This document shows positions 12,328 through 58,535 of a stretch of DNA of 64,000 nt, in pieces (the stretch's first letter is position 1; each line of letters opens with the position of its first letter). This DNA is from Marinobacterium aestuarii (lineage in GTDB: Bacteria; Pseudomonadota; Gammaproteobacteria; Pseudomonadales; Balneatricaceae). A program made the position numbers and the translations under genes. The DNA lies in NCBI RefSeq assembly GCF_001651805.1, contig NZ_CP015839.1, positions 930,001 to 994,000 on the forward strand, in the 5' to 3' direction. The notes below the pieces were generated by a model. The model saw only the letters and a program-made list of their open reading frames with translations, did not search any database and was not told the DNA's origin.

Positions 12328-12522
12328 TCGACAGTCGCCGTTCGTGATTGGTAATTGGTAATTGGTAAGCCGGAAGCTTTCAGCCGTAAGCCGTAAGCCG
12401 TAAGCTGACAGCTTTAAGCTTACGGCTGAAGGCTCTAATCACGAATCACGAAGACTGGTCATTAGTCATTAGTCATTAGTCATTGGTGATTGGTGGATTG
12501 GTGATTGGCGCTGCACCGAAAC

Positions 12523-12562
12523 TCGCCTGGGGCTCCTTTCCCGGAATTCGCAGGCTCATTCC
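12523..12562. repeat. REP-like core and 29-bp block shared between islands
   Basis: Bases 12523-12551 are identical over 29 bp to 43457-43485 in island B. Overlapping them, 12543-12562 (GGAATTCGCAGGCTCATTCC) is identical over 20 bp to the REP copy at 352-371 beside the RAYT gene. Here the GTAG head is degraded to GTAAC. Confidence 0.75.
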
Positions 12563-12698
12563 AGGTTACCTACACTCCAACGTCCGCAGCCTGCTCTTCT
12601 CTCCCTTGCCCCTTTTACCTTGCCCCTTGAACCCGCTCTCATAATCACGAATCACGAAGATTGGTAATTGGTAATTGGTAATTGGTGAATCGAGCCTT

Positions 12699-12730
12699 GT
12701 TGGATGCGGTGGAGCGCAGCGAAACCCATC
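12699..12730. repeat. Degenerate REP-like palindrome in island A
   Basis: GGATGCGGTG (12702-12711) and ACCCATC (12724-12730) flank GAGCGCAGCGAA. This resembles the GGATGGGT...ACCCATC hairpins commonly associated with RAYT families, with a damaged head (GTTGG instead of GTAGG). It separates the second and third heptamer runs. Confidence 0.4.
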
Positions 12731-12838
12731 GAGGTGATCGCGGTGCTTGGATATTGATAAGCCGGCAGCTTTCCGCCGTAAGCCGTAAGCCGTAAGCCGT
12801 AAGCTGACAGCTTAAGGCTGTCAGCTTGCCGCTTGCTT

Positions 12839-15800
12839 CTAGCCCTTATCGCTGGCGATCAGTTTGTTGATCATGGCGCGCAACGCTGCGGGCTTCACCG
12901 GTTTTGTCAGCAGGTGCACGCCCCTGGCGGCAATTTCATCGCTGACTCTGTCGGTGCGATCGGCGGTGATGATGACCGCAGGTATGGGTTTGGACCAGAA
13001 GGCCTGCATGGCTTCAAGCGCCATGAGTCCGGTATAGGTTTCCCCCAGGTGGAAGTCGGCCAGAATGATATCGGGCTCAAAGCCGGTGCCGTTCAGCTGC
13101 TGCCGCACTTCATCCACCGACAGCGCCGTGATGGCCTCGCAGGACCAGCCATTGAGCAGTGCCCGCATGCCCTCGAGGATCTTGGGTTCGTTGTCGATCA
13201 CCAGCACCCGCACGCCATTGAGACCCTTGCTGCGAATCCAGCCCCGTTGCTCGGTTTTCTGCCGCACGGCCTTGCCGGGGTCGCCAAAGGGCACTTCGAT
13301 ACTGAAGGCCGTACCCTTGCCGGGCCATGAGCGCACCTCGATGCGATGGCCGAGAATGCGGGCGATACGCTCGGTGATGGCAAGGCCCAGGCCCAGCCCC
13401 TTCACCTGACTGTGGCGCGGGTTGTCGATGCGCCTGAATTCCTCGAACACCTCATCCAGCTTGTCCGGGGCAATGCCCACACCCGTATCCCAGACCTCGA
13501 TGCGCAGCCTGTCGCCGTGGCGCCGGCAGCCCAGCAGTACCTTGCCCTGCTGGGTATAGCGAATGGCATTGGAGAGAAAATTCTGCAGAATGCGGCGCAG
13601 CAGTGCCTGGTCGGACGCGACCACCTGCTGCGAATTGCACCAGTGCAGCTGCAGCTGTTTTTCGGCCGCCAGCAGGCTGAATTCGGTACTTAGGTTGGTG
13701 AGCATGGTGCTGATGCAGAAATCGGTCACATTGGCGGCCAGGGCGCCGGCGTCCAGCTTGGAAATATCCAGCAAGGTGGTGATCAGCTCTTCCGCCGCCT
13801 TGAGGGATGAATCCAGATTGTCCACCAGCTGGTGAGTGCTCTGATCATGGCTTTGCTGCGCCAGGGCCGAGCTAAATAGGCGCGCGGCATTGAGCGGTTG
13901 CAACAGGTCGTGGCTGGCCGCAGCCAGGAAGCGTGTCTTGCCGAGGTTGGCCGCTTCCGCTTCGGCCTTGGCCTGGCGCAGCTCGTCCTCGATCAGGGCG
14001 CGAATGGTGTTTTCCTTGCGCAGCTCGCGGTTGACCGTCGACAGTGCCAGGGTGCGCTCGCGCACGCGCTCTTCCAGTGTTTCATTGGTTTCCTTGAGCG
14101 CGAGCTCCGCGGTGCGCCTTTCGGTGATGTCCTGATAGAGCGTGAAATAGCCCACGACCTGGTGCTGCTCGTCGAAGTGGGGGATATAGGTGACTTCGGC
14201 GTAACGCGGCGCGTCGCTGGGAATCTGGCTTGGCATGAGGGACTCAAAGCGCACCCGTTGGCCGCGCAGTGCCTGCTCGATATACAGATCACGGTTACTG
14301 ACCTGGGCCTTGCTGAGGACCGTTTCGTAGGCCAGCCCCTGTACATGGTGCCGATCGATGCCAAAGGCGTCGGCGTAGGCCTTGTTGACGAACAGAAAGC
14401 GCCGCTGCGGGTCCAGGTAGGCAATCAGGATGGGCACGTTGTCGGTATAGGTGCGCACATTCTGTTCGCTTTCACGCAGTGCAGCCTCGGTGCGCTTGTG
14501 ATTGGTAATATCAGCGTAGGTGGTGACAAAGCCGCCGTTGGGCATGGGGTTGCCGAGAATTTCGAGTACAGTGCCATCGGGGCGGTGGCGCTCATACAGG
14601 TGGGGGGCGTGGCTCACCTGGCTGCCCATGCGCTGCGTCACCAGTGCCTCGATATCGCCGTCACCGTATTCACCCTGCAAGGCGTTGTAGCGGAATATTT
14701 CCTCGATAGGGCGACCGACACAGATCAGGCCCTCAGGGTACTTGAACATTTCCAGGTAACGCCGGTTCCAGGCCACCAGTCGCAGCTGCTGATCCACCAC
14801 GCTGATGCCCTGGGTGACGTGCTCAATGGTGGATTGCAGTAGCGAGCGGTTGAAGCGCAGTGCCTTGGAGGCCTCATCGACGATGGTGACGACATCGCCA
14901 ATCTGCATTTCCTTGCCGCGCAGCACCGAGGCCAGCACGATACGGGCCGAGGATGCCCCGATCACGCCGGCCAGCAGGCGTTCGGTAAAGCGGATCAGTT
15001 CCGCCGGTGCCTTGTCACCCGACAACGGCGGCTTTTCGCCATGCTGGGTCGAGAAACCGGCAAAAGCCTGCTGCACCCGATGGGCGCCCAGAAAGCGCTC
15101 GGCCAGGGTCTGCAGATCGCCAACGGTGACCTGACTGTAATGGCGTGAGGGGTCCTGCAGCTCCTTGCTGTAGACATCGACAAAGGCGCTGGCCTGGATG
15201 CGGTCCACCAGGCGCGAGCCGCTGTAGTGTGACACCAGCACATAGAGCCCGAGGTTGACGGCCAGGCTCCAGATCACGCCGTGGCTGAGCGGGTCCAGCC
15301 CCGTCCAGCTGCGCAGACCCAAAAGGTCTGTGGGGGATAGCCAGCCACCGGCGGCGGCGCCCGCGGGCAGCAGGGCGTCGGAGATCAGCCTGGCGTCGAT
15401 CAGGGTGGGAATTACCAGGGTGTAAACCCAGAGGCAGAAGCCGCCCGCAAGCCCCGCCAGAGCGCCGTAACGGGCGCCACGTTTCCAGTAGAGGCCGCCC
15501 AGAATGGCGGGCAAAAACTGAATGGCGGCAACAAACGCCAGCAGGCCGAAGGAGGCGAGGGAGCCGCGGTCCCCCAGAATGCGGTAATAAAAGTAGGCCA
15601 GCAGCAGCAGGCACACAATGGTGATGCGGCGTACCTGCAGCAGCAGGCCGCCCAGGTCGCTGTTTTCGGCGAGCTTCAGGCGCGGTGTACGCAGCAGCAG
15701 CGGCATGACGATGTCATTGCACACCATGGTAGACAGCGTCACGCTGGCGACTATGACCATGCTGGTGGAGGCCGAGAGGCCGCCGATAAAGGCCAGGGTC

Positions 15801-16780
15801 GCCAGCGCCTTGTAATCGGCGGCCAGGGGCAGCATCAGTACAAAGGTGTCGGTATCGACATCCTGGGAGCCAAACACCATGTAGCCCGCCACCGAGATCG
15901 GCAATACGAAGGCGGCCAGCGCCACCAGGTAGAGCGGGAACAGCCAGCGGGCGGTGCGCAGGTTGGCGACATCGGTGTTTTCGACAATGCTGACGTGGAA
16001 CTGGCGTGGCAGGCAGAGCACCGCACCGCAGGCCAGCAGGGTCTCGGTGAGGAAGCTGTCTTTTAGCAGGCTGCCGAAATTTTCGTTGTAACTCAGCTGG
16101 TTGGCCAGGTTGAACAGCATGTCGTCCAGGCCTTCGAAGACATTGAAGGTGACAAAGAGGCCGACGGCAATAAAGGCAGTGAGTTTGACGATGGATTCGA
16201 ACGCCACCGCCAGCACCATGCCCTCGTGGTGTTCAGTTGCGTCTATATGGCGGGTGCCAAAGAGGATGGCGAAGACCGCCATCAGCAGGGCCACGAACAG
16301 GGCGGTATCATTGCCCTTGCTTAGGGCATCGCTGGCCGCGGGTGCCAGAGCATCGTAACTGATGGCCACGGCCTTCAGCTGCAGCGCTATGTAGGGAATG
16401 GTACCCAGCACCGCGATCACCGTGACCATCACGGCGAGACTTTGGCTTTTGCCGTAGCGGGACGAGACAAAGTCGGCGATGGAGGTGATATTTTGTTCTT
16501 TGCTCACCAGTATCATTTTTTCCAGCACGCGCCAGCCAAAAATAAATACCAGAAAGGGGCCCAGGTAGGTGGCCAGAAACTCCCAGCCGCTGGAGGCGGC
16601 CCGGCCCACGGCACCGTAAAAGGTCCAGGATGAGCAATACACCGCCAGAGACAGCGAGTAAATAACCGGATTGGCAGCGTAGGAGCGACCCTTGCGGGTG
16701 CTGTCGCCGTAATAGGCGATGGCAAACAGCAGGCCTACATACGCCAGTGAAATCAGTATTATCGTCCAGCCGGAAAACAT
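12839..16780 (-). CDS. Sodium/solute-symporter-like hybrid sensor kinase (CrbS/MxtR-like)
   Basis: 1313 residues. The first 500 or so form a multi-span permease-like domain of the SSS family (start MFSGWTIILISLAYVGLLF). Two PAS domains follow (near 650 and 780), then a coiled coil, HisKA with phospho-acceptor His near 955 (AAASHDLLQPLNAARL), HATPase (GVGIAPDKLDEVFEEF, GLGLGLAITERIARIL) and a C-terminal receiver with Asp near 1240 (ILADFHLGE). It probably senses acetate or flux through its permease domain and signals to the response regulator at 11662. The neighbouring acs and symporter genes support this. It ends directly at heptamer island A. Confidence 0.9.
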   Translation of the reverse strand: MFSGWTIILISLAYVGLLFAIAYYGDSTRKGRSYAANPVIYSLSLAVYCSSWTFYGAVGRAASSGWEFLATYLGPFLVFIFGWRVLEKMILVSKEQNITSIADFVSSRYGKSQSLAVMVTVIAVLGTIPYIALQLKAVAISYDALAPAASDALSKGNDTALFVALLMAVFAILFGTRHIDATEHHEGMVLAVAFESIVKLTAFIAVGLFVTFNVFEGLDDMLFNLANQLSYNENFGSLLKDSFLTETLLACGAVLCLPRQFHVSIVENTDVANLRTARWLFPLYLVALAAFVLPISVAGYMVFGSQDVDTDTFVLMLPLAADYKALATLAFIGGLSASTSMVIVASVTLSTMVCNDIVMPLLLRTPRLKLAENSDLGGLLLQVRRITIVCLLLLAYFYYRILGDRGSLASFGLLAFVAAIQFLPAILGGLYWKRGARYGALAGLAGGFCLWVYTLVIPTLIDARLISDALLPAGAAAGGWLSPTDLLGLRSWTGLDPLSHGVIWSLAVNLGLYVLVSHYSGSRLVDRIQASAFVDVYSKELQDPSRHYSQVTVGDLQTLAERFLGAHRVQQAFAGFSTQHGEKPPLSGDKAPAELIRFTERLLAGVIGASSARIVLASVLRGKEMQIGDVVTIVDEASKALRFNRSLLQSTIEHVTQGISVVDQQLRLVAWNRRYLEMFKYPEGLICVGRPIEEIFRYNALQGEYGDGDIEALVTQRMGSQVSHAPHLYERHRPDGTVLEILGNPMPNGGFVTTYADITNHKRTEAALRESEQNVRTYTDNVPILIAYLDPQRRFLFVNKAYADAFGIDRHHVQGLAYETVLSKAQVSNRDLYIEQALRGQRVRFESLMPSQIPSDAPRYAEVTYIPHFDEQHQVVGYFTLYQDITERRTAELALKETNETLEERVRERTLALSTVNRELRKENTIRALIEDELRQAKAEAEAANLGKTRFLAAASHDLLQPLNAARLFSSALAQQSHDQSTHQLVDNLDSSLKAAEELITTLLDISKLDAGALAANVTDFCISTMLTNLSTEFSLLAAEKQLQLHWCNSQQVVASDQALLRRILQNFLSNAIRYTQQGKVLLGCRRHGDRLRIEVWDTGVGIAPDKLDEVFEEFRRIDNPRHSQVKGLGLGLAITERIARILGHRIEVRSWPGKGTAFSIEVPFGDPGKAVRQKTEQRGWIRSKGLNGVRVLVIDNEPKILEGMRALLNGWSCEAITALSVDEVRQQLNGTGFEPDIILADFHLGETYTGLMALEAMQAFWSKPIPAVIITADRTDRVSDEIAARGVHLLTKPVKPAALRAMINKLIASDKG

Positions 16781-17061
16781 AGGCGCCGCTGTCTCAGTGT
16801 TGATCTTTACAGTCTCTGCTTATTTGCAGAACTTTGCCGTACGACTATTGTATAACCTGTTGCCTTGCACCGGGATCGCTAAATGTATTTCTGAGCGAAA
16901 CGCCCGTATGGCGGGTGCTGCAGTCATTCTTGCTGCTGTAGCTGCGCTGTTTCAGGGCCGACTTGGACTAAAGTCGGGGATTTTTAATCCATAGCGCTCT
17001 GCTAGATTGAATCTGTCCTGATTTTAATTAATCCTGCTAACAACAATAAAGGAATGGTGCT
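16781..17061. promoter_or_regulatory. Divergent control region, sensor kinase / symporter
   Basis: These 281 bp hold no gene. A hairpin CCGACTT (16958-16964) / AAGTCGG (16971-16977) is followed by GGGATTTTTAAT, so it could be an operator or a weak terminator/attenuator on the symporter side. The symporter small subunit has AAGGA before its ATG. No sigma-70 pair is clear enough to call. Confidence 0.35.
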
Positions 17062-17322
17062 ATGTCCCTGAGTCCTGAAAAAGCCCTTGCCTACTGGCGC
17101 GCGAACCTGCGCATCATCTGGACCTATCTTGCGATCTGGTTCATCGCCTCCTACGGTTGCGGCATTCTGTTTGTTGACCAGCTTGATGCCATTCAATTCT
17201 TCGGTTTCCCGCTGGGATTCTGGTTTGCGCAACAAGGCTCTATCTTTATTTTCGTCATCCTGATCTGGGCCTATGTGTTCAGTACCAACAAGCTTGACGA
17301 ACAATATGACGTTCACGAATAA
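17062..17322 (+). CDS. Symporter small subunit (DUF4212 family)
   Basis: 86 residues with two hydrophobic spans (about 19-40 and 58-79). YWRANLRIIWTYLAIWF and FGFPLGFWFAQQGSIFIFV are characteristic of DUF4212, the small subunit paired with VC_2705-type sodium/solute symporters. It lies 34 bp before the large subunit, and the two should form one inner-membrane carrier. The exact substrate is not fixed by sequence; acetate or another short monocarboxylate is likely from the acs neighbourhood. Confidence 0.88.
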   Translation: MSLSPEKALAYWRANLRIIWTYLAIWFIASYGCGILFVDQLDAIQFFGFPLGFWFAQQGSIFIFVILIWAYVFSTNKLDEQYDVHE

Positions 17323-17356
17323 CAACGATAAAAGACACTAGAAGGGCGGCATTATT

Positions 17357-19156
17357 ATGAGTCTCGACTTACTCACATACCTTTTTATCGGGGGATCCTT
17401 TGCGCTCTATATCGGTATCGCGATATGGGCCAGGGCCGGATCGACCAAAGAGTTTTACGTGGCAGGCGGCGGTGTTCACCCGATTGCCAATGGCATGGCC
17501 ACGGCGGCGGACTGGATGTCTGCAGCCTCCTTTATTTCTCTGGCCGGGATTATTTCCTTCGTTGGCCGTGATGGTTCTGCCTATTTGATGGGCTGGACCG
17601 GCGGTTACGTAATGCTGGCCATGCTGCTGGCGCCCTACCTGCGCAAGTTCGGCAAGTTTACCGTGCCGGATTTTGTCGGTGACCGCTATTACAGCAGCAC
17701 GGCGCGCATGATTGCTGTGCTCTGTACCATCGTCATTTCCTTTACCTATGTGGCGGGACAGATGCGTGGTGTGGGTATCGTGTTCTCCCGCTACCTGCAT
17801 GTGGATGTTAATACAGGCGTACTGCTGGGCATGGCCATCGTATTCTTCTATGCGGTGCTGGGCGGCATGAAAGGTATTACCTACACCCAGGTGGCACAGT
17901 ACTGCGTGCTGATCCTGGCGTTTACGGTGCCAGCCTTCTTCCTGTCGGCACAGATTACCGGTCATTTCCTGCCCCAGATTGGTCTGGGTGCAACCCTGGG
18001 GACGGGTCAGTCGGTACTGGCAACGCTGGATTCGCTGTCGGTGGAACTTGGCTTCAAGGCCTATACGGATGGCAGCAAGTCGACCATCGATATGGTGTTC
18101 TTTACCGTTGCGCTGATGGCGGGCACCGCGGGCCTGCCCCACGTCATAGTGCGCTTCTTCACCGTGCCGCGAGTGAAGGATGCCCGTACCTCTGCCGGTT
18201 GGGCGCTGATCTTTATCGCCATTCTGTATACCTCTATCCCGGGTGTGGCAGGCTTTGGCCGCGTGAACCTGATCAATACGATTAATGGCGCCGACAATGC
18301 CGGTACAACCTATACGGAAATGCCGAGCTGGTTCAAGAACTGGGAAACCTCGGGCCTGATCGGCTGGTACGATCATAACGGTGACGGCAAGGTGCAGTAT
18401 GCGGCGGGTGATGCCTTTGAAGGCAGCAAGCCCAACTTCACAGACGGTGCCGGCGAGTTTGGTCAGCGTATGGTCAGCAACCCGAAAATGGAGCCTGCGG
18501 CGGTCAATGGCGCGCCTTTTGCCAACGAAGTTTATGTCGACCGTGACATCATGGTGCTGGCGAACCCCGAGATTGCCAATCTTCCGGCCTGGGTCATAGC
18601 GCTGGTGGCAGCCGGTGCGGTGGCGGCGGCGCTGTCGACGGCGGCAGGTCTGCTGCTGGTTATCTCGACGGCGATCGCCCATGACATGATGAAGAAAACC
18701 ATTAATCCGAACATAACCGACAAGCAGGAGTTGTTGTACGCCCGACTTGCCGCTATCGTGGCGATCTGTATCGCCGGCTACTTCGGGATCAACCCGCCGG
18801 GCTTTGTGGCCCAGGTGGTGGCGCTGGCCTTCGGTCTGGCCTGTGCTTCGGTGTTCCCGGTGCTGCTGATGGGTATCTTCAGCAAGCGCATGAATACTGA
18901 GGGTGCTGTGACCGGGATGCTGATGGGTCTGGTATCGACCATGGCATACATCATCTACTTCAAGTTCATGGGTGGCAGCCCGGATGACTACTTCTTCGGT
19001 ATCTCTCCGGAAGGTTTCGGTACTGTCGGCATGATCCTGAACTTTGCCTCTGCGTTCCTGGTGTCGTCGATGACGCCCGCGCCTTCGGCTGAAATCCAGG
19101 CGATTGTCGAGAACATCCGCATTCCTCGCGGAGCGGGTGAAGCGCACGCGCACTAA
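17357..19156 (+). CDS. Sodium/solute symporter large subunit (VC_2705 subfamily; probable acetate or monocarboxylate uptake)
   Basis: 599 residues, inner membrane, SSS family. The N-terminus (SLDLLTYLFIGGSFALYIGIAIWARAGS, in two halves) and FYVAGGGVHPIANGMATAADW are typical of ActP/VC_2705 carriers. Between membrane helices, about residues 310-410 form a hydrophilic insertion containing DHNGDGKVQYAAGDAF, which looks like an EF-hand calcium loop. It is co-oriented with the DUF4212 small subunit and followed by three hairpins and a strong terminator. The likely job is Na+-driven uptake of acetate or related acids feeding Acs; the substrate is inferred. Confidence 0.88.
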   Translation: MSLDLLTYLFIGGSFALYIGIAIWARAGSTKEFYVAGGGVHPIANGMATAADWMSAASFISLAGIISFVGRDGSAYLMGWTGGYVMLAMLLAPYLRKFGKFTVPDFVGDRYYSSTARMIAVLCTIVISFTYVAGQMRGVGIVFSRYLHVDVNTGVLLGMAIVFFYAVLGGMKGITYTQVAQYCVLILAFTVPAFFLSAQITGHFLPQIGLGATLGTGQSVLATLDSLSVELGFKAYTDGSKSTIDMVFFTVALMAGTAGLPHVIVRFFTVPRVKDARTSAGWALIFIAILYTSIPGVAGFGRVNLINTINGADNAGTTYTEMPSWFKNWETSGLIGWYDHNGDGKVQYAAGDAFEGSKPNFTDGAGEFGQRMVSNPKMEPAAVNGAPFANEVYVDRDIMVLANPEIANLPAWVIALVAAGAVAAALSTAAGLLLVISTAIAHDMMKKTINPNITDKQELLYARLAAIVAICIAGYFGINPPGFVAQVVALAFGLACASVFPVLLMGIFSKRMNTEGAVTGMLMGLVSTMAYIIYFKFMGGSPDDYFFGISPEGFGTVGMILNFASAFLVSSMTPAPSAEIQAIVENIRIPRGAGEAHAH

Positions 19157-19169
19157 CCGATCTGAGCTA

Positions 19170-19228
19170 TTAACCCGGCGGGTTAATATATGAAGCAGGG
19201 ACGCTTCATCATTGGCCGTAGGCCAATG
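19170..19228 (+). other. Three adjacent hairpins after the symporter gene
   Basis: Three perfect inverted repeats follow one another within 59 bp: TTAACCC-GGC-GGGTTAA (19170-19186), ATGAAGC...GCTTCAT (19190-19209) and CATTGGCC-GTA-GGCCAATG (19210-19228). None has a T-run. They may stabilise the 3' end of the symporter mRNA or form a small structured RNA ending at the terminator at 19334. Confidence 0.6.
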
Positions 19229-19333
19229 CGAACGCCAGCAAAACCAGCATGTCCACGCACCTGCGCCCGTTTTGATGGCGTGATGGACAAATAGGGAGGG
19301 AATCTATTTGTCCGCCAGGTTAATAGTAGGGAC

Positions 19334-19367
19334 AAAGGCACACCGGCTTATGCGGGTGTGCCTTTTT
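19334..19367 (+). terminator. Intrinsic terminator
   Basis: AAAGGCACACC (19334-19344) pairs perfectly with GGTGTGCCTTT (19355-19365) and runs into T at 19363-19367. It separates the symporter operon from the DUF294 gene, and its position argues against a start of that gene at 19358. Confidence 0.88.
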
Positions 19368-19429
19368 GCTTTCAGGGGGTTGTCATGAGCAGCCGGCAGG
19401 CTGCCTGGCAATGTCAGACAGGAGTACGT

Positions 19430-22455: not shown

Positions 22456-22492
22456 TACGGGATCCAACAGGAATCAGGGCGGCTTCACTTGA

Positions 22493-27886: not shown

Positions 27887-29515
27887 ATGCTTGCCCCTTT
27901 ATCGCCTGTCATCTCTGTCACTTCGTTGTCCAGGCCCGCTGTGACAGCCGCCGGCGCTGGCTCTGCGCCTTCAGCGCCCGGAGTTGTGGATTTTTCCGGC
28001 GTACTGGCCGCAGAGCGTGCCGGCGGCGAAAAATTGCCGCAGCCCCAGGCGACAGAGCCCGCTGAAAACAGCGGCGGCAAGAGCCTGCCAGGCGTTGGGG
28101 ATAATCCAGCCAGCACCGATGTTGCCGCTGAGGCGGGCGCAGATATTGAGGGGAGTGTTGGGGCGGATGCACGAGCCTCCGCGCAAATGCGTCGGGAGCA
28201 GGGCTTTGCGCCCGCATCGCTACAGGCCCAGGCCCGTGCGGCCGAGGGGAGTGCGGTGATCAATGGTGTGCCTGCCAGGGCTGAGCCAGTGGCTGAGTCT
28301 GAACTCTCTATCCAGCAAGCCAATGCCGATGCTGCATTGTCGTCGGCTTTAGAGTCGGCCGGTCAGATTGCGAAGCAAGAGATGGATCAGGCGGCTGAGC
28401 CGTTGCTGTCGCCGTCCGGGGCCAGGGCGCCCTTAGCCGTGCAGGATGAAAGCGGGCCTTGGGTTGGGGTTGTGCCGCAAGTTGCAGTGGCGACTGAGAG
28501 CGCAAATATCAGCACAGTTGATGGCGATGGCGATGGCGATGGCGATGGCGCGGCGCGGGCACCGGCTGTAGATAATTCAGCCGTGGATATCGCGGGCGCG
28601 GTTAGCGCGAATGCAGCGGCGGCCAGTGCGCCGCCTGTGGATATTCAGACCCTGATGAGCGCGATTCAGCGTGAGGCCGGCCAGGCACTGCCGCCGGCGG
28701 TAATTCGTGCCTTGCAGGCGCAGCAAGCCCAGCAAGTTCAACATGCAGAACAGCGTCTTGAGGCCGCACCGGCGGCTGCTACGCCAGGGTTGAATACTGA
28801 GCCTGTGCTGGCGGGCTCACCGCCGCGCCTGCCGGGCGCTGAGCTAGCGCCTGTTTCTGTTACGCCTAACCCGGGTCTTGCACCGCAGAACGCTGATGCC
28901 GGTGCAGAGCAGACCCGAGTGCGCCTGAGTGCGGCGGATGCGATGGTGCGCCTCGCAGGCGCAGCTGAAGCGGGCGCCGATCAGGGCGATGACAGTACCC
29001 TGCAGGCAGGGGTGCTGCGAACCGGTGCTGAAGGAACTCGGGCGGCGCAGCCGCTGAATCCGCTACCGGCGCAGCTGCAAAGTATGCCGCCCGGGCTTTC
29101 GCTGGGCCTGTCACAGGGTAATGCCGCCTGGGGGCAGGCCATTTCGGAGCGGGTACTGCTAATGACGGCGGGCAGTCTGCAGGTGGCCGAAATTCGGCTG
29201 GATCCGCCGGAACTGGGCACTCTGCATGTGCGCCTGCAGCTGAATCAGGATCAGGCGAGCCTTAGCTTTAGCTCGCCCCACGCCCAGGTGAGGGATGCGC
29301 TGGAACAGCAGATGCCGCGCCTGCGCGAGATGCTGGCAGAGCAGGGGCTCAATCTTGAAAGCAGTTCGGTGGCCGATGATTCAGAGCGGCGCGAACGCTC
29401 TGCACCCGATGCCGGCCAGGGTACTGGGCTGATGGCCGAGCAGGATGAGGATACGGCCATAACGGTGGTGCCCGTGGCGGCGTCCAGCCGGTCACTGGTG
29501 GATGATTACGCCTGA
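27887..29515 (+). CDS. fliK: Flagellar hook-length control protein FliK
   Basis: 542 residues from ATG 27887 (CTGGAG site); the longer in-frame start would be upstream of the candidate promoter. The long Ala/Pro/Gln-rich ruler region is low in complexity and contains a GDGDGDGDG stretch made by a 6-bp tandem repeat (about 28520-28548). The C-terminal Flg_hook domain (VAEIRLDPPELGTLHVRLQL and following) contacts FlhB to switch export from hook to filament proteins. The ruler varies greatly between species. Confidence 0.93.
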   Translation: MLAPLSPVISVTSLSRPAVTAAGAGSAPSAPGVVDFSGVLAAERAGGEKLPQPQATEPAENSGGKSLPGVGDNPASTDVAAEAGADIEGSVGADARASAQMRREQGFAPASLQAQARAAEGSAVINGVPARAEPVAESELSIQQANADAALSSALESAGQIAKQEMDQAAEPLLSPSGARAPLAVQDESGPWVGVVPQVAVATESANISTVDGDGDGDGDGAARAPAVDNSAVDIAGAVSANAAAASAPPVDIQTLMSAIQREAGQALPPAVIRALQAQQAQQVQHAEQRLEAAPAAATPGLNTEPVLAGSPPRLPGAELAPVSVTPNPGLAPQNADAGAEQTRVRLSAADAMVRLAGAAEAGADQGDDSTLQAGVLRTGAEGTRAAQPLNPLPAQLQSMPPGLSLGLSQGNAAWGQAISERVLLMTAGSLQVAEIRLDPPELGTLHVRLQLNQDQASLSFSSPHAQVRDALEQQMPRLREMLAEQGLNLESSSVADDSERRERSAPDAGQGTGLMAEQDEDTAITVVPVAASSRSLVDDYA

Positions 29516-37606: not shown

Positions 37607-39310
37607 ATGAAAGTAAAACGCATTTTTGCCCCTGACATGCGCCAGGCGATGCGACGGGTGCGGGAAGAGATCGGCCCCGATGCGGTCATTGTCTCCAATC
37701 ACCGTGTGGCCGGCGGTGTTGAAGTGGTTGCCGCCCACGAACAGGAATACGAGGCGGCCCAGGCCGAGTTCAAGCGCCAGAGCCAGGAGCGCCGCCGGCG
37801 TGACGAACAGGTGCAGACGCTCACCGGTGCTGATCGTTCGGGCGCCGGGCGCCAGGGTGGCGTGCTGGAAGACGAAATGCGCAAGGTCAGGGCGCGTATC
37901 GCCTCGGCCCAGCAACAGAGCGGTGTTGCGATGGAGCCGGATATGGGGGTCATGCGTAATCGTCAGATCGGCCAGGATGATGACGAGGATCTGCGCAGTA
38001 TTCTGGAATCCCTCAAGCAGCGGCAAAAATCCCGCGCTGAGGTGGTAGCGCCACCGTTTGAAGGCAGCGGTTTTGAGGCTGACCCCTTCGCCCCTGGATC
38101 CCGGCCTGAACCGACCTTCAGGCCTGAAGCTGCGCCAGGGCCTGAACCACGGCAAGAACCGGCACCAAGATCAGCGGCGCAACTGCGCTCCGAGCCGCAG
38201 TTGCGGCCGCAGTCAGCATCTGCACCTCAGGGGCCGGCGGCAGCCGAGTATCCAGGGGAATCCCGGAGCTCTCGCAATTCTCGGGACACGCAGGATCATG
38301 AGCGCATCCTCAGCATGCAGGATGAGATTCAGCAGCTCAAAGTCATGCTGCAGCAGCAGTTGCAGGCCCAGGCGCAGCCTCAGATGCAGCCTCAGATGCA
38401 GGCGCCGCCAGCGGCACCCATTCAGCCCGCGCCATCCCAGCCGGCTCCGCCACCGGCCGCTCAACCCGCTGCCATGCCGCAGGCCCAGGTGCGCCTCAGT
38501 CGCAGGCTCGACAGTCTCGGCATCGGGCCCCGGGTGGTGCGCCATCTGGTGTCGAGCATTGAGCAGGATGTTGAAATCGACAAGGCCTGGCGCAGCAGTC
38601 TGGCGCGCCTGTCCGATGCCATCCCGGTGGTCGGGGAAGAGTTTATCGAGCGCGGTGGCATGGTGGCCTTTGTCGGTCCCACCGGAGTGGGCAAGACCAC
38701 CACGATCGGCAAGCTGGCAGCACGCTACGTGCTCAAGTACGGCAGTGCCAGTCTCGCGCTGGTGACCACGGATACCTACCGCATCGCGGCCCATGAGCAG
38801 CTGCGTACCTTTGGCCGCATTCTGGATGTGCCGGTGCGGGTGGTGGATGAAAATCATTCGCTGGATGAAGTGCTGCACTCACTCAAGGGCAAGCGCCTGG
38901 TACTGATTGATACCGCCGGCATGAGCGCCGACGAGCCCCATACGGCAGCGCAGATCGAGCTGCTGCAGGGTGTGTCGCTGCGGCTTAAAAAATTGTTGGT
39001 GCTGTCATGTTCCAGCCAGAAACGGGTGATCGAAAGTGCCTACAATACCTATCAGACGCTGGGTCTGAGCGGCTGCGTACTGAGCAAGCTCGACGAGTCC
39101 GGCAGTCTGGGCGAGGCGCTGACGCTGTCGATCGAGAAACAGTTGCCTATTGCCTATGTAACCGATGGTCAGAAGATTCCCGATGATATAGGGGTGGCGC
39201 GGCGTCATGATCTGGTGAGCCGTGCCGTGGTGACGACGCAGAAAGCGCAGGAACGTGAACAGCAGGCGGACGAAGGTCCGGATCTGAGTTTTATAGGTCG
39301 GGCAGGATGA
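37607..39310 (+). CDS. flhF: Polar flagellum placement GTPase FlhF
   Basis: 567 residues from ATG 37607 (AGAGG site); the longer frame adds an unconserved 29 residues. The N-terminal basic part (MKVKRIFAPDMRQAMRRV) is followed by a Gln/Pro/Ala-rich linker (about 140-300) and an SRP-type GTPase NG domain with GPTGVGKTTTIGKLA, DTYRIAAHEQLRTFG, DTAGM and SKLDE. FlhF marks the cell pole for flagellum assembly and works with FleN, encoded next. Confidence 0.95.
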   Translation: MKVKRIFAPDMRQAMRRVREEIGPDAVIVSNHRVAGGVEVVAAHEQEYEAAQAEFKRQSQERRRRDEQVQTLTGADRSGAGRQGGVLEDEMRKVRARIASAQQQSGVAMEPDMGVMRNRQIGQDDDEDLRSILESLKQRQKSRAEVVAPPFEGSGFEADPFAPGSRPEPTFRPEAAPGPEPRQEPAPRSAAQLRSEPQLRPQSASAPQGPAAAEYPGESRSSRNSRDTQDHERILSMQDEIQQLKVMLQQQLQAQAQPQMQPQMQAPPAAPIQPAPSQPAPPPAAQPAAMPQAQVRLSRRLDSLGIGPRVVRHLVSSIEQDVEIDKAWRSSLARLSDAIPVVGEEFIERGGMVAFVGPTGVGKTTTIGKLAARYVLKYGSASLALVTTDTYRIAAHEQLRTFGRILDVPVRVVDENHSLDEVLHSLKGKRLVLIDTAGMSADEPHTAAQIELLQGVSLRLKKLLVLSCSSQKRVIESAYNTYQTLGLSGCVLSKLDESGSLGEALTLSIEKQLPIAYVTDGQKIPDDIGVARRHDLVSRAVVTTQKAQEREQQADEGPDLSFIGRAG

Positions 39311-43178: not shown

Positions 43179-43181
43179 GCG

Positions 43182-43552
43182 GCTGATCGCTGATCGCTGA
43201 TCGCTGGTGAATGGTGAATGGTGGATCGTAATTGGTAATTGGTAATTGGTGACGTGTAATTGGTAAATAGTGGTTGGTCATTGGTCGGCGTAGCCTGCAT
43301 GCTGATCACGAATCACGAATCACGAATCACGAATCACGAATCACGAATCACGAATCACGAATCACGAATCACGAATCACGAATCACGAATCACGAATCAC
43401 GAATCACGAATCACGAATCACGAATCACGCAGCCTGAATGGCCACATTCTCGAAATTCGCCTGGGGCTCCTTTCCCGGAATTCGCTTCGCTCATCAGGCT
43501 ACGAACTGCCTTTCTCTCCCTTTCACCTTGCACCTTTCACTTTAACCTTGCG
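43182..43552. repeat. Heptamer island B (convergent junction)
   Basis: The 397-bp gap between convergent genes is mostly 7-bp repeats in one register. The order is GCTGATC x3, GCTGGTG, AATGGTG x2, GATCGTA, ATTGGTA x2, ATTGGTG, ACGTGTA, ATTGGTA, AATAGTG, GTTGGTC, ATTGGTC, GGCGTAG, CCTGCAT, GCTGATC, then ACGAATC x17 (43308-43426; equivalently AATCACG). After a 91-bp non-repetitive block that holds the 29 bp shared with island A (43457-43485) and a REP-like palindrome with GTAG head (43477-43503), heptads ACCTTGC, ACCTTTC, ACTTTAA and CCTTGCG (43525-43552) resume in the same register. Every frame through the AATCACG array is open, encoding ITNHESR repeats, but nothing suggests a gene. Confidence 0.92.
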
Positions 43553-43575
43553 CCTGCTCCCCAGGCCCGCAAACA

Positions 43576-43889: not shown

Positions 43890-45125
43890 TCAGGTCTTAA
43901 GGTTGATAAGCTGGCGGCGAATGCCGGTTTCACCGCGCGGTGCCGTGCCCTGGTGACAGCCCAGATCGTCGAGCTCTATACCCTGGCGGCCCAGGTTGCG
44001 GGCAAATTCAGGCAGGCGCTGCTCTATCAGTCGGGCGGTTTCCGGCTCCGGTGTCCAGAAACGGGCGCTCATGCGGCTATCATCGCGCAGTCGCAGTTCA
44101 GCTTCCAGCGGTCCCAGGGCTTGCAGATCAAAATGCAGCCGCACCAGCCAGTGGCTGCTGGCTGGGTCCTCGCCCCGGCGGGCGCGGTAGCGTTTGAGCC
44201 GTAACTCCACGTTTTCCATGCGCTCACCAAGGCGCACCGGCAAATCCAGCGCCAGGTGGCGCTCGCTGGTGCCGTCCGGCAGATCCTTGTTCTGGCTGGC
44301 GCTGTTCAGTTGCGAGCTGGTGATGCGGGCCAGCAGGTCGCCCAGCAGCTTGTGCATCTGCTTTCGAGCCTGGGGTGGCAGGGCGTCTGCCAGCTGTTGC
44401 AGCTGGCCCATTTGAGCCTTGAGGTCCGTAGTGGCGCTGCCCGTATTGCCGGGGGCGGTGCTCTTTGTGCCGCTGGGTTGGGTGGCTGTGCGGCCCAGGT
44501 TTGCTTCGGTAAAAAATCCGCCTTTCTCTATATTGCGGCGCACGGCCAGGCCTGAATCACGTAGCCCAGGTGTAATGCCGAATATCTGCAGCAGGGATTG
44601 TACGACGGGACTGAGCTGGCGCGCCGCCTGGGTGGCGGCCGCCGTGCCCGGTTGTGCCTGTTGCAGTAGCTGATTGAGTACGTCGCCAAAACGTTGCTGG
44701 CGCGGCAGGCTGGTACGCAGCAGGCTGTCCAGCGTCGCAGTCGCAGTCGCAGTCGCAGTCGCAGGGGGGGCGGGCTGGCTGCTGGGCTGGCTGCTGGGGG
44801 TTGCTGGTGGACGGGCCGGCGTTTCGGCGGTCAGGCTGAGTTGCAGCTGGCCCGCGCTGTTGCGTGACAGCACAACGGCAGTGCCGGCCGCTAGTGCGCG
44901 CTGGGTGTTCAGCTCCAGCAGTTGGCCTGCACGCTGCAGCTGCAGTTGCAGGCGGATGCCGCTGGCATCGGTGCTGGCCTGCAGCACGGTTGCCGCCAGC
45001 TGGCCACCGGCGGGGAGCAGGCGTGCCAGAGTCGGTTCGACGGACGGCTGGGTCTGCAACAGGTTGGGGCCCAAAGTAGGTATCAAAATGGCTCCAAAGA
45101 CGGGTTGAATGCACGGCGCCTGCAT
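43890..45125 (-). CDS. Second FliK-like hook-length/export-control protein
   Basis: 411 residues. The N-terminal half is Ala/Gln/Pro-rich with a short run of Ala-Thr pairs made by a 6-bp repeat (about 44737-44764). The C-terminal half (LDLPVRLGERMENVELRLKR, WLVRLHFDLQALGPLEAELR, EFARNLGRQGIELDDLGCHQ) resembles the Flg_hook domain. It pairs with the FlhB-tail gene downstream. Similar pairs next to ccmA are known from Pseudomonas genomes. Whether it acts in flagellar export is inferred. Confidence 0.75.
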   Translation of the reverse strand: MQAPCIQPVFGAILIPTLGPNLLQTQPSVEPTLARLLPAGGQLAATVLQASTDASGIRLQLQLQRAGQLLELNTQRALAAGTAVVLSRNSAGQLQLSLTAETPARPPATPSSQPSSQPAPPATATATATATLDSLLRTSLPRQQRFGDVLNQLLQQAQPGTAAATQAARQLSPVVQSLLQIFGITPGLRDSGLAVRRNIEKGGFFTEANLGRTATQPSGTKSTAPGNTGSATTDLKAQMGQLQQLADALPPQARKQMHKLLGDLLARITSSQLNSASQNKDLPDGTSERHLALDLPVRLGERMENVELRLKRYRARRGEDPASSHWLVRLHFDLQALGPLEAELRLRDDSRMSARFWTPEPETARLIEQRLPEFARNLGRQGIELDDLGCHQGTAPRGETGIRRQLINLKT

Positions 45126-50003: not shown

Positions 50004-50017
50004 TATCAAGGATTCTG

Positions 50018-50560: not shown

Positions 50561-51057
50561 GGCATCTGTTAATCGCGTTGCTGCTCTGGTTGCCGCTGAC
50601 GGCTCTGGCTGCCATCGACAGTTTCGAGTTCAGCGATGAGGCGACCCGGGAGCGTTTTTACAGTCTGACCGCCGAACTGCGCTGCCCCAAATGTCAGAAC
50701 CAGAATATCGCCGACTCCAACTCGCCCATTGCCCAGGATCTGCGTAACGAGATTCACCGCATGCTGCAACAGGGTGATTCGGATCAGGACATCGTCGACT
50801 TCATGGTGGCGCGCTATGGCGAGTTTGTACTCTATCGCCCGCGTGTCACCGCCCAGACGCTGGTGCTCTGGTATGGCCCCTTTGGCCTGCTGGCCATAGG
50901 GGCGCTGGTCGTACTGGTCATGACACGCAGGCGCAAAAAAGCGCCTCGCCCGGGTGTCTCTGCGAGCTCGGAGCCGGGCCCGCTTGAGCCGGTGGAGCCT
51001 TTGTCGGACGCCGAGCGGCAGCGGTTGGATGAATTGCTTAAACAGGATGAGAAATAA
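50557..51057 (+). CDS. ccmH: Cytochrome c maturation protein CcmH
   Basis: 166 residues. A cleavable signal (MRHLLIALLLWLPLTALA) is followed by the LRCPKCQNQNIADSNSPIA motif (Cys43 and Cys46), then a membrane helix near 104-124 and an acidic tail. It presents apocytochrome thiols to the CcmF ligase. The stop overlaps the ccmI ATG by one base. Confidence 0.95.
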   Translation: MRHLLIALLLWLPLTALAAIDSFEFSDEATRERFYSLTAELRCPKCQNQNIADSNSPIAQDLRNEIHRMLQQGDSDQDIVDFMVARYGEFVLYRPRVTAQTLVLWYGPFGLLAIGALVVLVMTRRRKKAPRPGVSASSEPGPLEPVEPLSDAERQRLDELLKQDEK

Positions 51058-52310: not shown

Positions 52311-52437
52311 TCGTCGCTCGGTCTATAGTTGCATCTGTTATTGCCGGGGCGACCTAGTCGCTCTGGCGAGATAAAGTAGTCGGTGGCCAGAGTTCGACTG
52401 GGCGCCAGTCAAAAAACTTTGAGATAGCAGCGGATTT

Positions 52438-54069
52438 ATGGAGATCAGCCTCAGAGAGTGGCTTGTCGTCGGCGGTGTGATTGTCATTGCGCTGATCATC
52501 TTTGATGGCTGGCGTCGTGTGCGTGGTGGCCGCAACAGTTTGCGCATGGATATTGATCGCAAGCTGCGTGACCTGCCGGAAGAGCCCGTGGAGCCTTCGA
52601 GCAATCCTGAATTGCCTTACGGCGGTGCCAGACCCATCAGTGGCCAGGTGCCGGAGTTTGTGCCCAAGCGCAAGCCCGGTGCTGCCTATGCCGCGAAAAT
52701 GGCCGCCACGGCCAAGGCTGCGGATGAGTCGGCAACGGAACCCGCTGAACGTATTGAGCCGACCTTCGGCTTTAGTGCCGAGTCTCGCCAGCAGGGGCAG
52801 CCCCGCGTGGCTGAGCCCGCGCGTGCGTCGGCGCCTGAGTCATCAGCACTCGAGCCTCAGGCCCGTGGGGCATCGGATTTCCGTGCACCGCTGCGCGCTG
52901 GCACAGAGGCCGACGGGCAGGCGGGTACAGAGTCCCGCGTCGAGCAGCGCATTGAACCCGACAGCGATGCTCAGTCTGCTGTGCAGCCCCCTGCTGCCCG
53001 GCCTTCCGTTGAGCACGCCTCTGCTAACCAGGTCGCTGTTAATCAGGCAGCGGTACCGCCGGCAGCTGCGCCACGGGCTGAAAGCCACGTCTCTTTTGAT
53101 GCAGACCCCCTGTTTGACGAACCGACAGAGGAAGACTATCCGGCACCGCGCAGGGCGTCTTTTGCGGCGTTGGAGCCTGAAGCTGACGACAGTCACGCAG
53201 CAAGTGCTGATGCCAAGTTGCCTGAAGCTGCTGATGCCAAGTCTGCGGCGGGCTCTGGGCGAAATTATCCACAAAGCGCGGTACAGAAACCCGCTGAGGA
53301 AGTTCCTCAGCACGTCTCCCGGGGTTTTTCACCGGAGATGGGCGAAACCGACCCGCTGTTTGATGATCTGCCCGTAGCGCCAGCACTGGACCTGGAAAAA
53401 CCGATTCCGCTGCTGATGGAGCGCAATCGTCAGCCCAAACGCGCCAGCGCTTCGGCCGAGAGTGCAGCGGGGTCGTCCAGTTCGAAAGCGCCGGCTGCGC
53501 CCCAGCAGGATTTGCTGTTCGGCAATGCACCGGAACAGCCTGAGCCAGCAGGCAGCCGTGGGCGTGCCGCCGAACCTGCAGCGCCTCAGGCGCGCACGGG
53601 CGATAGCTCGGCGGCTGCGCCGAACCCGGACAGCGTTCTGGTTATCACCGTTGTTTCCAGTGTGCCAGAGGGCTTGCCCGGTGCCTTGCTGTACAAGATC
53701 ATCAGCGCCTGTGATCTGCACTTCGGTGACATGGATATTTTCCATCGCCACGAGGATGGCAGTGACACAGGGCCGGTGCAGTTCAGCATGGCCAACGCGG
53801 TCAACCCCGGCACCTTTGATCTGGCGACCATCGATGAGATGACCACCCAGGCCGTGACTTTTTTCATGTCCATGCGAGAGCCACGGGATGTGATGAATGC
53901 CTTTGAGTGCATGCTGGCGACGGCCGAGACACTGGCGCGGCATCTTGACGGTGACCTGCTGGATGAAAATCGCTCGGTGCTGCGCCCGCAGACCAAGGAA
54001 CATTATCGTCAGCGCATTCGTGATTTCGAAATGCACAACCGGTCCCGCCGGGGCGGCTCGCGCGTCTGA
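52438..54069 (+). CDS. zipA: Cell-division protein ZipA
   Basis: 543 residues, much longer than the usual 290-350. A single N-terminal membrane helix (LREWLVVGGVIVIALIIFDG) is followed by a very long Ala/Pro/Glu/Ser-rich linker (about 40-395). The C-terminal FtsZ-binding ZipA domain is intact (LVITVVSSVPEGLPGALLYK, GDMDIFHRHEDG, FSMANAVNPGTFDLATIDEM). It tethers FtsZ to the membrane at the division site. In many relatives smc lies directly upstream of zipA; here the neighbour is ccmI. zipA is followed by ligA, as usual. Confidence 0.93.
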   Translation: MEISLREWLVVGGVIVIALIIFDGWRRVRGGRNSLRMDIDRKLRDLPEEPVEPSSNPELPYGGARPISGQVPEFVPKRKPGAAYAAKMAATAKAADESATEPAERIEPTFGFSAESRQQGQPRVAEPARASAPESSALEPQARGASDFRAPLRAGTEADGQAGTESRVEQRIEPDSDAQSAVQPPAARPSVEHASANQVAVNQAAVPPAAAPRAESHVSFDADPLFDEPTEEDYPAPRRASFAALEPEADDSHAASADAKLPEAADAKSAAGSGRNYPQSAVQKPAEEVPQHVSRGFSPEMGETDPLFDDLPVAPALDLEKPIPLLMERNRQPKRASASAESAAGSSSSKAPAAPQQDLLFGNAPEQPEPAGSRGRAAEPAAPQARTGDSSAAAPNPDSVLVITVVSSVPEGLPGALLYKIISACDLHFGDMDIFHRHEDGSDTGPVQFSMANAVNPGTFDLATIDEMTTQAVTFFMSMREPRDVMNAFECMLATAETLARHLDGDLLDENRSVLRPQTKEHYRQRIRDFEMHNRSRRGGSRV

Positions 54070-54103
54070 GCCTGAGCCGCCTGCGCGCTTATAGCCGCGC
54101 TGA

Positions 54104-57145
<3,042 letters not shown>

Positions 57146-57149
<4 letters not shown>

Positions 57150-57364
57150 TTATTCCCCATGGTGAGTTATCGCCCGAGACTCTGGATAACCTGATCAGCG
57201 AGTTTGTCACCCGTGATGGTACCGACTACGGTGAGCAGGAAACGCCCCTGGCGAGCCGGATAGGGCAGGTGCGCCAGCTGCTGCAGCGCGGCCAGGTGGT
57301 TATACTGTTCAGCGAAAGTACAGGGCTGTGCAATATAGTGGCAAAGGACCAGCTGGAAAAATAA
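57146..57364 (+). CDS. yheU: YheU family protein (UPF0270)
   Basis: 72 residues from GTG 57146, the same length as E. coli YheU. MIIPHGELSPETLDNLISEF, VTRDGTDYGEQE and a C-terminal LLQRGQVVILFSEST follow the family pattern. A GGAG site lies 6 bases before the start, and the start overlaps the preceding stop. A longer frame from 57089 would run through the lipoprotein gene. The molecular function of the family is unknown. Confidence 0.88.
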
Positions 57365-57436
57365 GCCTGTTCCGTGGTCATATTTATTGAGCGGACGCTT
57401 TCCCCTTTTTTACTCATTGCCTAAATCGGAGGCGCT

Positions 57437-58135
57437 ATGGATCAGCTAGAGCAAATCACCCAAATGATTGCCCTGTCCATGGGCCTGGCCTGGGCCAGTG
57501 GTATCAATCTGTACGCCACCCTGCTGATGCTGGGGGTGCTGTCCAACACCGGCAATATAGTGTTGCCGCCTGGGCTCGAGGTTGTTGGCGACCCCATGGT
57601 GCTGATGGCCGCGGGCTTGATGTACTGCGTCGAGTTTTTCGCCGACAAGATACCGGGCGTCGACACCGGCTGGGATACCCTGCATACCTTTATCCGTATT
57701 CCCGCAGGCGCTGCGCTGGCGGCGGGGGCCGTGGGCGAGATTGGCCTGCCGGTGGAACTGGCCGCCGCCATTGTGGGCGGCTCGCTGGCGACTGCGACCC
57801 ATGCGGCCAAGGCCGGCAGCCGGGTGCTGATCAATACCTCGCCGGAACCCTTCAGTAACTGGACGGCGTCCGTGGCTGAAGACGTGATGGTCGTCGGCGG
57901 TATCTGGGCGGCGCTGTACAACCCCTGGCTGTTTATCGCCGGTCTCATTGTATTCGTGCTGCTGCTGGTGTGGCTGCTGCCCAAGGTCTGGCGTGGCGTG
58001 AAGCGGGTGTTTCGTTTCCTGACGCGGCTCTTTGGCGGCGGTGGCGATGAGGTCGCGCCGCTGCACTCGAGTTCAGGCTCTGGTTCTAGTCCAGGCTCAA
58101 GCCGGGCCCTGCCGGGCGAACGCCCGCGCCACTGA
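57437..58135 (+). CDS. DUF4126 membrane protein
   Basis: 232 residues with about five hydrophobic segments. The N-terminal MIALSMGLAWASGINLYATL and MYCVEFFADKIPGVDTGWDT are characteristic of DUF4126. The C-terminal tail is basic, then Ser/Gly-rich. A GGAGG site lies upstream of the ATG. Function is unknown. It ends 87 bp before heptamer island C begins. Confidence 0.8.
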   Translation: MDQLEQITQMIALSMGLAWASGINLYATLLMLGVLSNTGNIVLPPGLEVVGDPMVLMAAGLMYCVEFFADKIPGVDTGWDTLHTFIRIPAGAALAAGAVGEIGLPVELAAAIVGGSLATATHAAKAGSRVLINTSPEPFSNWTASVAEDVMVVGGIWAALYNPWLFIAGLIVFVLLLVWLLPKVWRGVKRVFRFLTRLFGGGGDEVAPLHSSSGSGSSPGSSRALPGERPRH

Positions 58136-58222
58136 AACAGGGAAAGAGCCGGTTGGACGAGTAAGTTAAAGGTGCAAGGTAAAAGGCGCAAGGGAGAGAA
58201 GAAAGAGCGGTCGGCTTGAGTG

Positions 58223-58530
58223 CTTTGAATTACGAATAACTAATCCCGAATCACGTGCCTTGCCGTTGGTTATTAGTAAATAGTAAATAGTTATTGGTAA
58301 TTGGTGGGTTGGCCTTGCACGCTGATCACGAATCACGAATCACGAATCACGAATCACGAATCACGAATCACGAATCACGAATCACGAATCACGAATCACG
58401 AATCACGAATCACGAATCACGAATCACGAATCACGAATCACGAATCACGAATCACGAATCCGCTTGCTACTTTCACCTTTCACCTTTCACCTTTCACCTT
58501 TCACCTCGCCCTTTCCTCTGCCACTTCGTC
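58223..58530. repeat. Heptamer island C (convergent junction)
   Basis: The 400-bp gap between convergent genes holds 44 consecutive heptads without a frame change: TTTGAAT, TACGAAT, AACTAAT, CCCGAAT, CACGTGC, CTTTGCC, GTTGGTT, ATTAGTA, AATAGTA, AATAGTT, ATTGGTA, ATTGGTG, GGTTGGC, CTTGCAC, GCTGATC, ACGAATC x19 (58328-58460), CGCTTGC, TACTTTC, ACCTTTC x4, ACCTCGC and on to the stop codon of the CBS gene. The flank GCTGATC before the ACGAATC array is the same as in island B. At 58164-58200 a purine-rich block (GGTGCAAGGTAAAAGGCGCA) is the reverse complement of the CT-rich block of islands A and B. Confidence 0.92.
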
Positions 58531-58535
58531 CTGAA

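Follow-up and report, generated by a model that had tools for sequence, protein, structure and literature searches.

Among long simple repeats, heptamers are the most abundant type in the majority of genomes surveyed by Mrazek 2007, as that survey is told in PMC4679880, which also recounts its proposal of a polymerase contact length of 7 nt. Repeats of this length form three islands, here called A, B and C, between convergent genes in a 64-kb window of the Marinobacterium aestuarii ST58-10 chromosome (the whole stretch analyzed, bases 930001-994000 of a single contig of 5,191,608 bp). The closest described systems are the GGGAATC and GGGGA(C/T)T repeats of Xanthomonas and Nostoc, which Rehm 2015 (PMC4692102) describes as tandem, genome-wide and mostly intergenic. 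According to that account, those downstream of open reading frames (ORFs) lie mostly within 50 bp past the stop codon and on the coding strand, and fewer of the GGGAATC-type repeats fall between divergent than between convergent ORFs (7-8% against 16% in Xanthomonas, 9% against 11% in Nostoc). MacGregor 2015 (PMC4679880) reports a second system, the TAACTGA repeats of marine Beggiatoaceae and others, which are likewise intergenic heptamer arrays in marine gammaproteobacteria; in the Microcystis sample treated there, they occur together with other heptamers, and of 22 intergenic sets, 8 lie between stop codons. Compared by description, the short tandemly repeated repetitive (STRR) sequences of filamentous cyanobacteria are also short tandem intergenic repeats, with Calothrix heptanucleotides among them (cited in PMC4692102), and an STRR upstream of hoxW has been reported (PMC2670836).

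The Marinobacterium arrays have the features of long simple sequence repeats (LSSRs) and STRRs: head-to-tail 7-nt units beyond chance, mostly intergenic and found genome-wide. They resemble the repeats of Rehm 2015 in tandem structure and placement, and also in that the G-rich strand is the coding strand within 50 bp after stop codons. They differ in drawing on other units from a mixed lexicon, most of which lack the GGG tracts of the quadruplex-forming repeats; in addition, the main class in PMC4692102 is placed between aligned ORFs, and repeat-bearing loci are described there as stable. The TAACTGA arrays of the Guaymas genome lie mostly just upstream of start codons as presented in PMC4679880, whereas Marinobacterium arrays close to a gene boundary mostly follow a stop codon. 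Neither GGGNATC or GGGGAYT units nor the TAACTGA unit occur among the 40 unit classes in the 2.86 Mb sampled, and a full-text literature search on Marinobacterium tandem or intergenic repeats found no paper on such repeats. We conclude that the arrays belong to a known kind of repeat, and that the strand rule shared across lineages is the part worth following.

An independent gene caller finds exactly three convergent and four divergent junctions in the window, and it reproduces the gap coordinates of a first-pass annotation of this DNA to the base. As that annotation had observed, heptamer arrays in the window are confined to the convergent gaps: all 12 perfect period-7 runs of at least 18 bp lie in A, B or C. 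The features are as follows, in window coordinates, with scans by Tandem Repeats Finder (TRF) or for perfect arrays named where they define a row; no strand is assigned to the repeats, and gene strands are given in brackets.

12328-12838: island A, a 511-bp convergent gap between a LuxR-type response regulator gene (+) and a PAS/hybrid histidine kinase gene (-)
12347-12508: left heptamer block of island A, with (ATTGGTA)3, (GCCGTAA)n, (AATCACG)2 and (TAGTCAT)n (TRF and perfect-array scan)
12643-12686: (AATCACG)2 and (ATTGGTA)4 of island A (TRF and perfect-array scan)
12758-12813: right block of island A, (GCCGTAA)4 and relatives (TRF and perfect-array scan)
43179-43575: island B, a 397-bp convergent gap between a DUF2802 gene (+) and an FlhB-C-like gene (-)
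43182-43285: left block of island B, with (GCTGATC)3.6, (TGGTGAA)n and (TTGGTAA)n, beginning 3 nt past the stop codon
43305-43429: perfect (ATCACGA)17.9 array of island B, 125 bp
43519-43549: imperfect (CCTTTCA)4.6 of island B, G-rich when read from the stop of the right-hand gene
58136-58535: island C, a 400-bp convergent gap between a DUF4126 gene (+) and a CBS-domain gene (-)
58272-58302: (TAGTAAA)/(ATTAGTA) heptamers of island C, in part degenerate (TRF)
58325-58460: perfect (ATCACGA)19.4 array of island C, 136 bp
58470-58506: perfect (CTTTCAC)5.3 of island C, which is (GGTGAAA)n past the stop on the strand of the right-hand gene

The gaps had been described as filled with heptamers. Repeats are indeed present, but TRF rows of period 7, 14, 21 and 28, summed by hand, cover only about 53% of A, 65% of B and 51% of C, and the remainder consists of degenerate heptamers and, in A and B, also of a non-tandem dispersed module. 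The islands said to abut a stop codon directly were A and C; instead it is B whose perfect array starts 3 nt past a stop, the nearest perfect arrays being 19 nt away in A and 29 nt in C. The remaining period-7 TRF rows of the window (8068-8083, 37839-37853, 39143-39157 and the imperfect 44774-44797) span 15-24 bp and lie within called genes.

We examined the rest of the M. aestuarii genome in 100 evenly spaced stretches (2.0 Mb or 38.5% of the genome, window excluded) and a second species, the relative G004, in a 0.8-Mb sample. Genes were called with our own hexamer-model script, whose starts are approximate and which misses RNA genes and genes below 150 nt, so some long gaps are not truly empty. 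The M. aestuarii sample contains 67 perfect period-7 arrays of at least 18 bp, 66 of them outside genes and 1 inside. Outside genes, each of the periods 4-6, 8-13 and 15 yields 0-6 arrays and period 14, a multiple of 7, yields 42; by this comparison, the abundance of period 7 is far above chance. Similarly, there are 48 repeat segments at lag 7 and 1-5 at each of eight other lags tested. The sequence of island B alone has 59 matches across the M. aestuarii genome.

With a more sensitive test for islands, 15 of 202 convergent, 19 of 1,095 tandem and 4 of 203 divergent gaps of the M. aestuarii sample hold one (15 of 147, 18 of 619 and 4 of 202 among gaps of at least 50 bp), and restricting the gaps to 50-1,000 bp gives agreeing results. 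The corresponding counts in G004 are 13 of 74, 10 of 430 and 2 of 77. The first-pass annotation had placed islands at every convergent junction, and only there. Neither half holds genome-wide, as merely 15 of the 202 convergent gaps carry an island while 23 of the 1,298 tandem and divergent gaps do. Islands are nonetheless commoner in convergent gaps than in tandem or divergent ones, and this bias survives control for gap length and regional density. With gap length in the model, the odds ratio of convergent to tandem gaps is 3.7 (1.8-7.7) in M. aestuarii and 7.5 (3.1-18) in G004. When islands are shuffled within stretches, the 15 convergent islands of M. aestuarii compare with 6.9 expected (p=0.0006) and the 13 of G004 with 3.8 (0 of 5,000 shuffles); the 4 divergent islands of M. 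aestuarii compare with 8.8 (p=0.029). Islands are also clustered. Seventy of the 100 stretches have none, the number of arrays per stretch has a variance-to-mean ratio of 2.1 (9.2 in G004), and of the 86 stretches with convergent gaps of at least 50 bp, 3 have an island in all of those gaps. The window is a rich patch that was picked because it was striking.

The second regularity is one of strand. We considered arrays whose nearest gene edge is a stop codon at most 50 bp away, counting the arrays of one island separately and excluding arrays whose units have as many G as C (20 of 114). In 34 of 38 such arrays, the G-rich strand, meaning the one with more G than C, coincides with the coding strand of the gene ending at that stop. 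The rule holds in convergent gaps (22:3) and tandem gaps (12:1) and in each source of sequence, with 15:2 for M. aestuarii outside the window, 15:2 for G004 and 4:0 for the window itself. Array-free stretches after stops have no such skew (44% with G>C, 47-49% with C>G). Taking stops instead of arrays as the unit of counting, and including both stops where a convergent gap is short, gives 31:9. Polarity with respect to the nearest stop fades and then turns with distance, from 45:8 within 100 bp to 49:21 within 300 bp, hence 4:13 at 100-300 bp. At loci of other relatives, it is 7:0 within 50 bp, one array having been met twice among the seven. Only 3 arrays lie within 50 bp of a start codon, compared to the 38 near stops, zero-skew units being excluded from both counts.

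Because this polarity appears here with other units and a similar one has been published for Xanthomonas and Nostoc, the rule is not tied to one unit. Our data extend the strand rule after stop codons to a third lineage, to other units and to two species. Simple and quantitative, the rule lends itself to testing with transcript data and bears on why 7-nt repeats abound in some bacteria. Shine-Dalgarno-like 5-mers share the orientation: they occur on the coding strand of 14 of 49 units within 50 bp of stops and on the antisense strand of 1, with 5.7±2.1 in shuffles. They may merely follow the richness in G and GT, and most units are without them.

The units themselves form a lexicon. The 67 M. 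aestuarii arrays fall into 27 unit classes, with rotations and strands merged, and AATCACG alone accounts for 15 arrays. All but two of these classes (25 of 27) have a neighbor class one substitution away, and the mean nearest-neighbor distance is 1.07, compared to 1.60±0.14 in random sets of the same base make-up; 12 of the classes recur among the 24 of G004. Since independent slippage on random seeds is not expected to produce such a lexicon, it suggests copying between sites followed by local expansion and mutation. This bears on the first-pass view that the islands are something other than random slippage, which was right in that placement and unit choice are non-random, while the perfect arrays of 18-19 units fit slippage acting locally. 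We also tried the unit set as a shared element across the class and rejected it: three copies of TTSGTRA match 10 of 369 genomes, M. aestuarii included, and a reversed control pattern also matches 10. Within the genus, 4 of 7 genomes match TTSGTRA, and the metagenome-assembled genome (MAG) HF-Din08 matches only the control.

Comparison between species indicates rapid turnover at individual gaps. In 156 gaps with the same neighbors in M. aestuarii (window included) and the G004 samples, both species have an array in only 1, which is junction B, M. aestuarii alone in 2 and G004 alone in 4. Among orthologous gaps of at least 50 bp, the median length difference is 67 bp for convergent (n=13), 25 bp for tandem (n=73) and 10 bp for divergent gaps (n=14), and one convergent gap, which has 14 bp in M. 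aestuarii, contains heptamers and reaches 296 bp in G004. We also followed the three junctions through six relatives: M. nitratireducens CGMCC 1.7286 (G001), M. rhizophilum DSM 18822 (G003), M. sedimentorum OS208 (G005), MAG HF-Din08 (G006), G002 and G004. The same two convergent genes meet at A and at B in 7 of 7 genus genomes, and junction C is convergent in 7 of 7. Perfect arrays of at least 18 bp are present in 8 of the 18 gaps (2 of 6 at A, 2 of 6 at B and 4 of 6 at C). At junction C, the units are (ATCACGA) and (CTTTCAC) in M. aestuarii, (GGTGAAT) in both M. sedimentorum and M. rhizophilum, (GCGAGGT) and (AGGGGCT) in G002, and (GTGATTC) with others in G004; junction C has no array in M. 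nitratireducens or HF-Din08.

Junction C could be traced further. A search found 21 loci, one of which (L140, a partial match in an Acidobacteria MAG) was excluded, and the CBS/DUF4126 pair is convergent in 20 of the 20 named records compared. Sixteen of the 20 records belong to neither the rhizophilum group nor its nearest kin; in these, the distance between the stops ranges from -32 to 55 bp, and 0 of the 16 gaps hold an array. Because the junction is nearly gapless and array-free in so many records, the several-hundred-base gap of island C is best read as a late, lineage-specific addition that the CBS/DUF4126 pair does not require. By eye, the island-C gaps of M. sedimentorum (L110) and M. 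rhizophilum (L112) are nearly identical, and the flanking proteins of M. sedimentorum are nearer to those of M. aestuarii than those of M. rhizophilum are. This mismatch between gap and flanking proteins may mean that the gap was exchanged by recombination.

The convergent bias is also seen for repeats other than heptamers. We masked period-7 sequence and scored gaps with at least 25 nt matching three or more other gaps. In M. aestuarii, such dispersed repeats occupy 24 of 97 convergent, 39 of 448 tandem and 7 of 187 divergent gaps of at least 100 bp (18 of 90, 35 of 431 and 5 of 179 when gaps above 1,000 bp are left out), and the pattern of placement has the same shape as that of the heptamers. 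Since these repeats share the convergent bias, placement is best read as a permissive sink at gene ends. What was a local pattern thus becomes a measured genome-level bias that other repeats of this genome share, a warning not to infer function from a single window. A similar argument has been made for repetitive extragenic palindromic (REP) sequences, which are reported to be frequent between convergent genes, where nothing regulatory is disturbed (PMC1525189).

We therefore regard the islands as probably clusters of heptamers of the LSSR/STRR kind that arise, expand and decay quickly downstream of genes. Their placement would be mainly passive. Neither promoters nor ribosome-binding sites of the adjoining genes lie in a gap between two stop codons, and insertions and expansions would for this reason be tolerated behind genes, most of all where two genes end. 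Arrays would be seeded from copies of lexicon units and then lengthened locally by slippage or unequal recombination. The likeliest source of the polarity would be a bias linked to transcription of the gene ending at that stop, for example if arrays expand on the displaced G-rich non-template strand. Alternatively, it could reflect selection against C-rich message ends, or selection for a barrier to incoming antisense transcripts.

Several observations weigh against a purely permissive sink. The strand polarity exceeds what a neutral sink would give and is not explained by passive filling. The sink account predicts fewer divergent than tandem islands, and this deficit is not clearly seen: for divergent relative to tandem gaps, M. 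aestuarii has an odds ratio of 0.55 (p=0.28) and G004 one of 0.57 (p=0.48). In the within-stretch shuffle, divergent islands fall below expectation in M. aestuarii, but the 2 of G004 are not clearly below the 3.8 expected (p=0.19). In G004, moreover, dispersed repeats are few (4 of 57 convergent, 9 of 263 tandem and 0 of 77 divergent gaps of at least 50 bp) and their convergent excess over tandem is not significant (p=0.26), while the heptamers are biased. Finally, the arrays with other units in 8 of the 18 gaps of relatives could mean function, for junctions that had been preselected for having islands.

The first-pass annotation had suggested a role where two transcripts collide. This idea is unsupported: other repeats share the bias, polarity in tandem gaps is equally strong, few islands are common to two species, the pair at C is nearly gapless in 16 of 20 records, and intrinsic terminators are not clearly different in frequency with and without islands. 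A rival explanation is a polar Rho barrier, in which each arm would be G-rich in the direction of its own gene, whereas an invading transcript would read it as C-rich, G-poor RNA whose cytosines are regularly spaced, a Rho loading site, so that the island would keep antisense transcription out of either gene. We scored rut-like sites as YC dimers with 9-13 nt between them (the published spacing is 11-13 nt), a test without the pause-site step, in convergent gaps of 90-1,000 bp of both species. In the last 120 nt before the opposing stop, such sites are present in 14 of 38 island arms and 15 of 238 island-free arms; in the outgoing direction, they also occur in 5 of 38 island arms and 18 of 238 others. 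When arms of 150 nt are scored, both arms of B and of C are rut-like to an invading transcript and neither is so in the outgoing direction, but A has no rut-like arm in either direction. Periodic C-rich repeats, however, satisfy the rut definition by construction, and tandem gaps are just as polar even though no convergent transcript arrives there. Most islands are not common to two species, and the C pair does without one in 16 of 20 named records. On balance, we consider a Rho barrier unlikely.

In a broader version, arrays of unrelated heptamers in Marinobacterium, Xanthomonas and Nostoc would all obey one rule, with the G-rich strand beginning at the stop codon of a gene and leading away from that gene. 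The arms could act as sequence-flexible one-way barriers that are neutral for the gene's own message and load Rho on antisense RNA; the replacement of units would then be irrelevant as long as strand composition is kept, and convergent gaps would gain two inverted arms. We hold this broader version to be improbable, a shade more so than the Rho barrier itself.

Three further explanations appear far less probable than either. If islands stood in for ordinary intrinsic terminators between convergent genes, their position directly past stop codons would make sense, and some blocks could form hairpins (AAGCCGT/ACGGCTT of A, read by eye). A hairpin-plus-T test in convergent gaps of 50-1,000 bp, however, was positive for 8 of 24 island gaps and 73 of 169 others (p=0.39), and at L022/L196, a terminator-like hairpin with T runs is present in both species with the heptamers beside it (by eye), which makes this role very doubtful. 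It is just as doubtful that the arrays serve as backup translation stops, although heptamers that contain a stop codon block all three reading frames once per 21 nt and would catch readthrough or frameshifted ribosomes. Stop codons are indeed found on some strand of 28 of 40 unit classes, compared to 21.9±2.3 in shuffled units, and within 50 bp of a stop, 26 arrays have one on the coding strand only and 4 on the other strand only. Yet this preference is reversed beyond 200 bp (3 against 12), 16 of 49 coding-strand units within 50 bp of stops contain no stop codon, and stop-free units are oriented too (AAGGGGC 6:0 and AAAGGGG 3:0 within 300 bp). Mutational tolerance predicts the same for arrays that overlap the stop, and three-frame stops are noted as a by-product for TAACTGA in the account of PMC4679880. 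Least probable of all is a polar replication or chromosome-segregation element oriented by replichore, since the excess of M. aestuarii arrays with a lagging G-rich strand (38, against 21 leading) is slight and runs counter to gene direction, most genes being leading (933, against 667 lagging), and the gene-linked polarity of 34:4 is far stronger.

The non-tandem module in A and B is REP-like and built around a GCCTGGGGCTCCTTTCCCGGAATTCGC core. Its two copies in the window, whose ends are approximate, are as follows.

12512-12569 (+): REP-like dispersed module within island A
43443-43509 (+): REP-like dispersed module within island B

REPs are palindromes, in contrast to the Marinobacterium heptamers, which are head-to-tail direct arrays. 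The likeness to REPs and bacterial interspersed mosaic elements (BIMEs) with their REP-associated tyrosine transposases (RAYTs) lies in the dispersed, extragenic distribution, frequent between convergent genes as PMC1525189 reports, and in the presence of the module within two of the islands. The module has matches in 6 of the 100 sampled stretches, and three matches to it at chromosome 242118-242644 adjoin a weak Y1_Tnp match at 241638-241940. In M. nitratireducens, junction B contains a RAYT-like Y1_Tnp gene (L146:2090-2608, minus strand) amid several REP-like repeats rather than heptamers. Another weak match to Y1_Tnp (PF01797) lies on the minus strand across the window's left boundary (window 1-173, chromosome 929829-930173), and matches over about the same range of the profile occur in G002, M. 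rhizophilum and G004.

Two minor observations concern other repeats and gaps. The window has perfect hexamer repeats, (GATGGC)5 at 28520-28550 and (GTCGCA)5 at 44734-44764, both within called genes, the second in a FliK-like gene; their period is divisible by three, as is usual for coding DNA. In one sampled stretch, L060 (chromosome 2703801-2723800), which lies near the maximum of cumulative GC skew in the sample, several heptamer arrays and dispersed repeats sit in gaps of 1.2-6 kb that lack called genes; these gaps may contain decayed or RNA genes.

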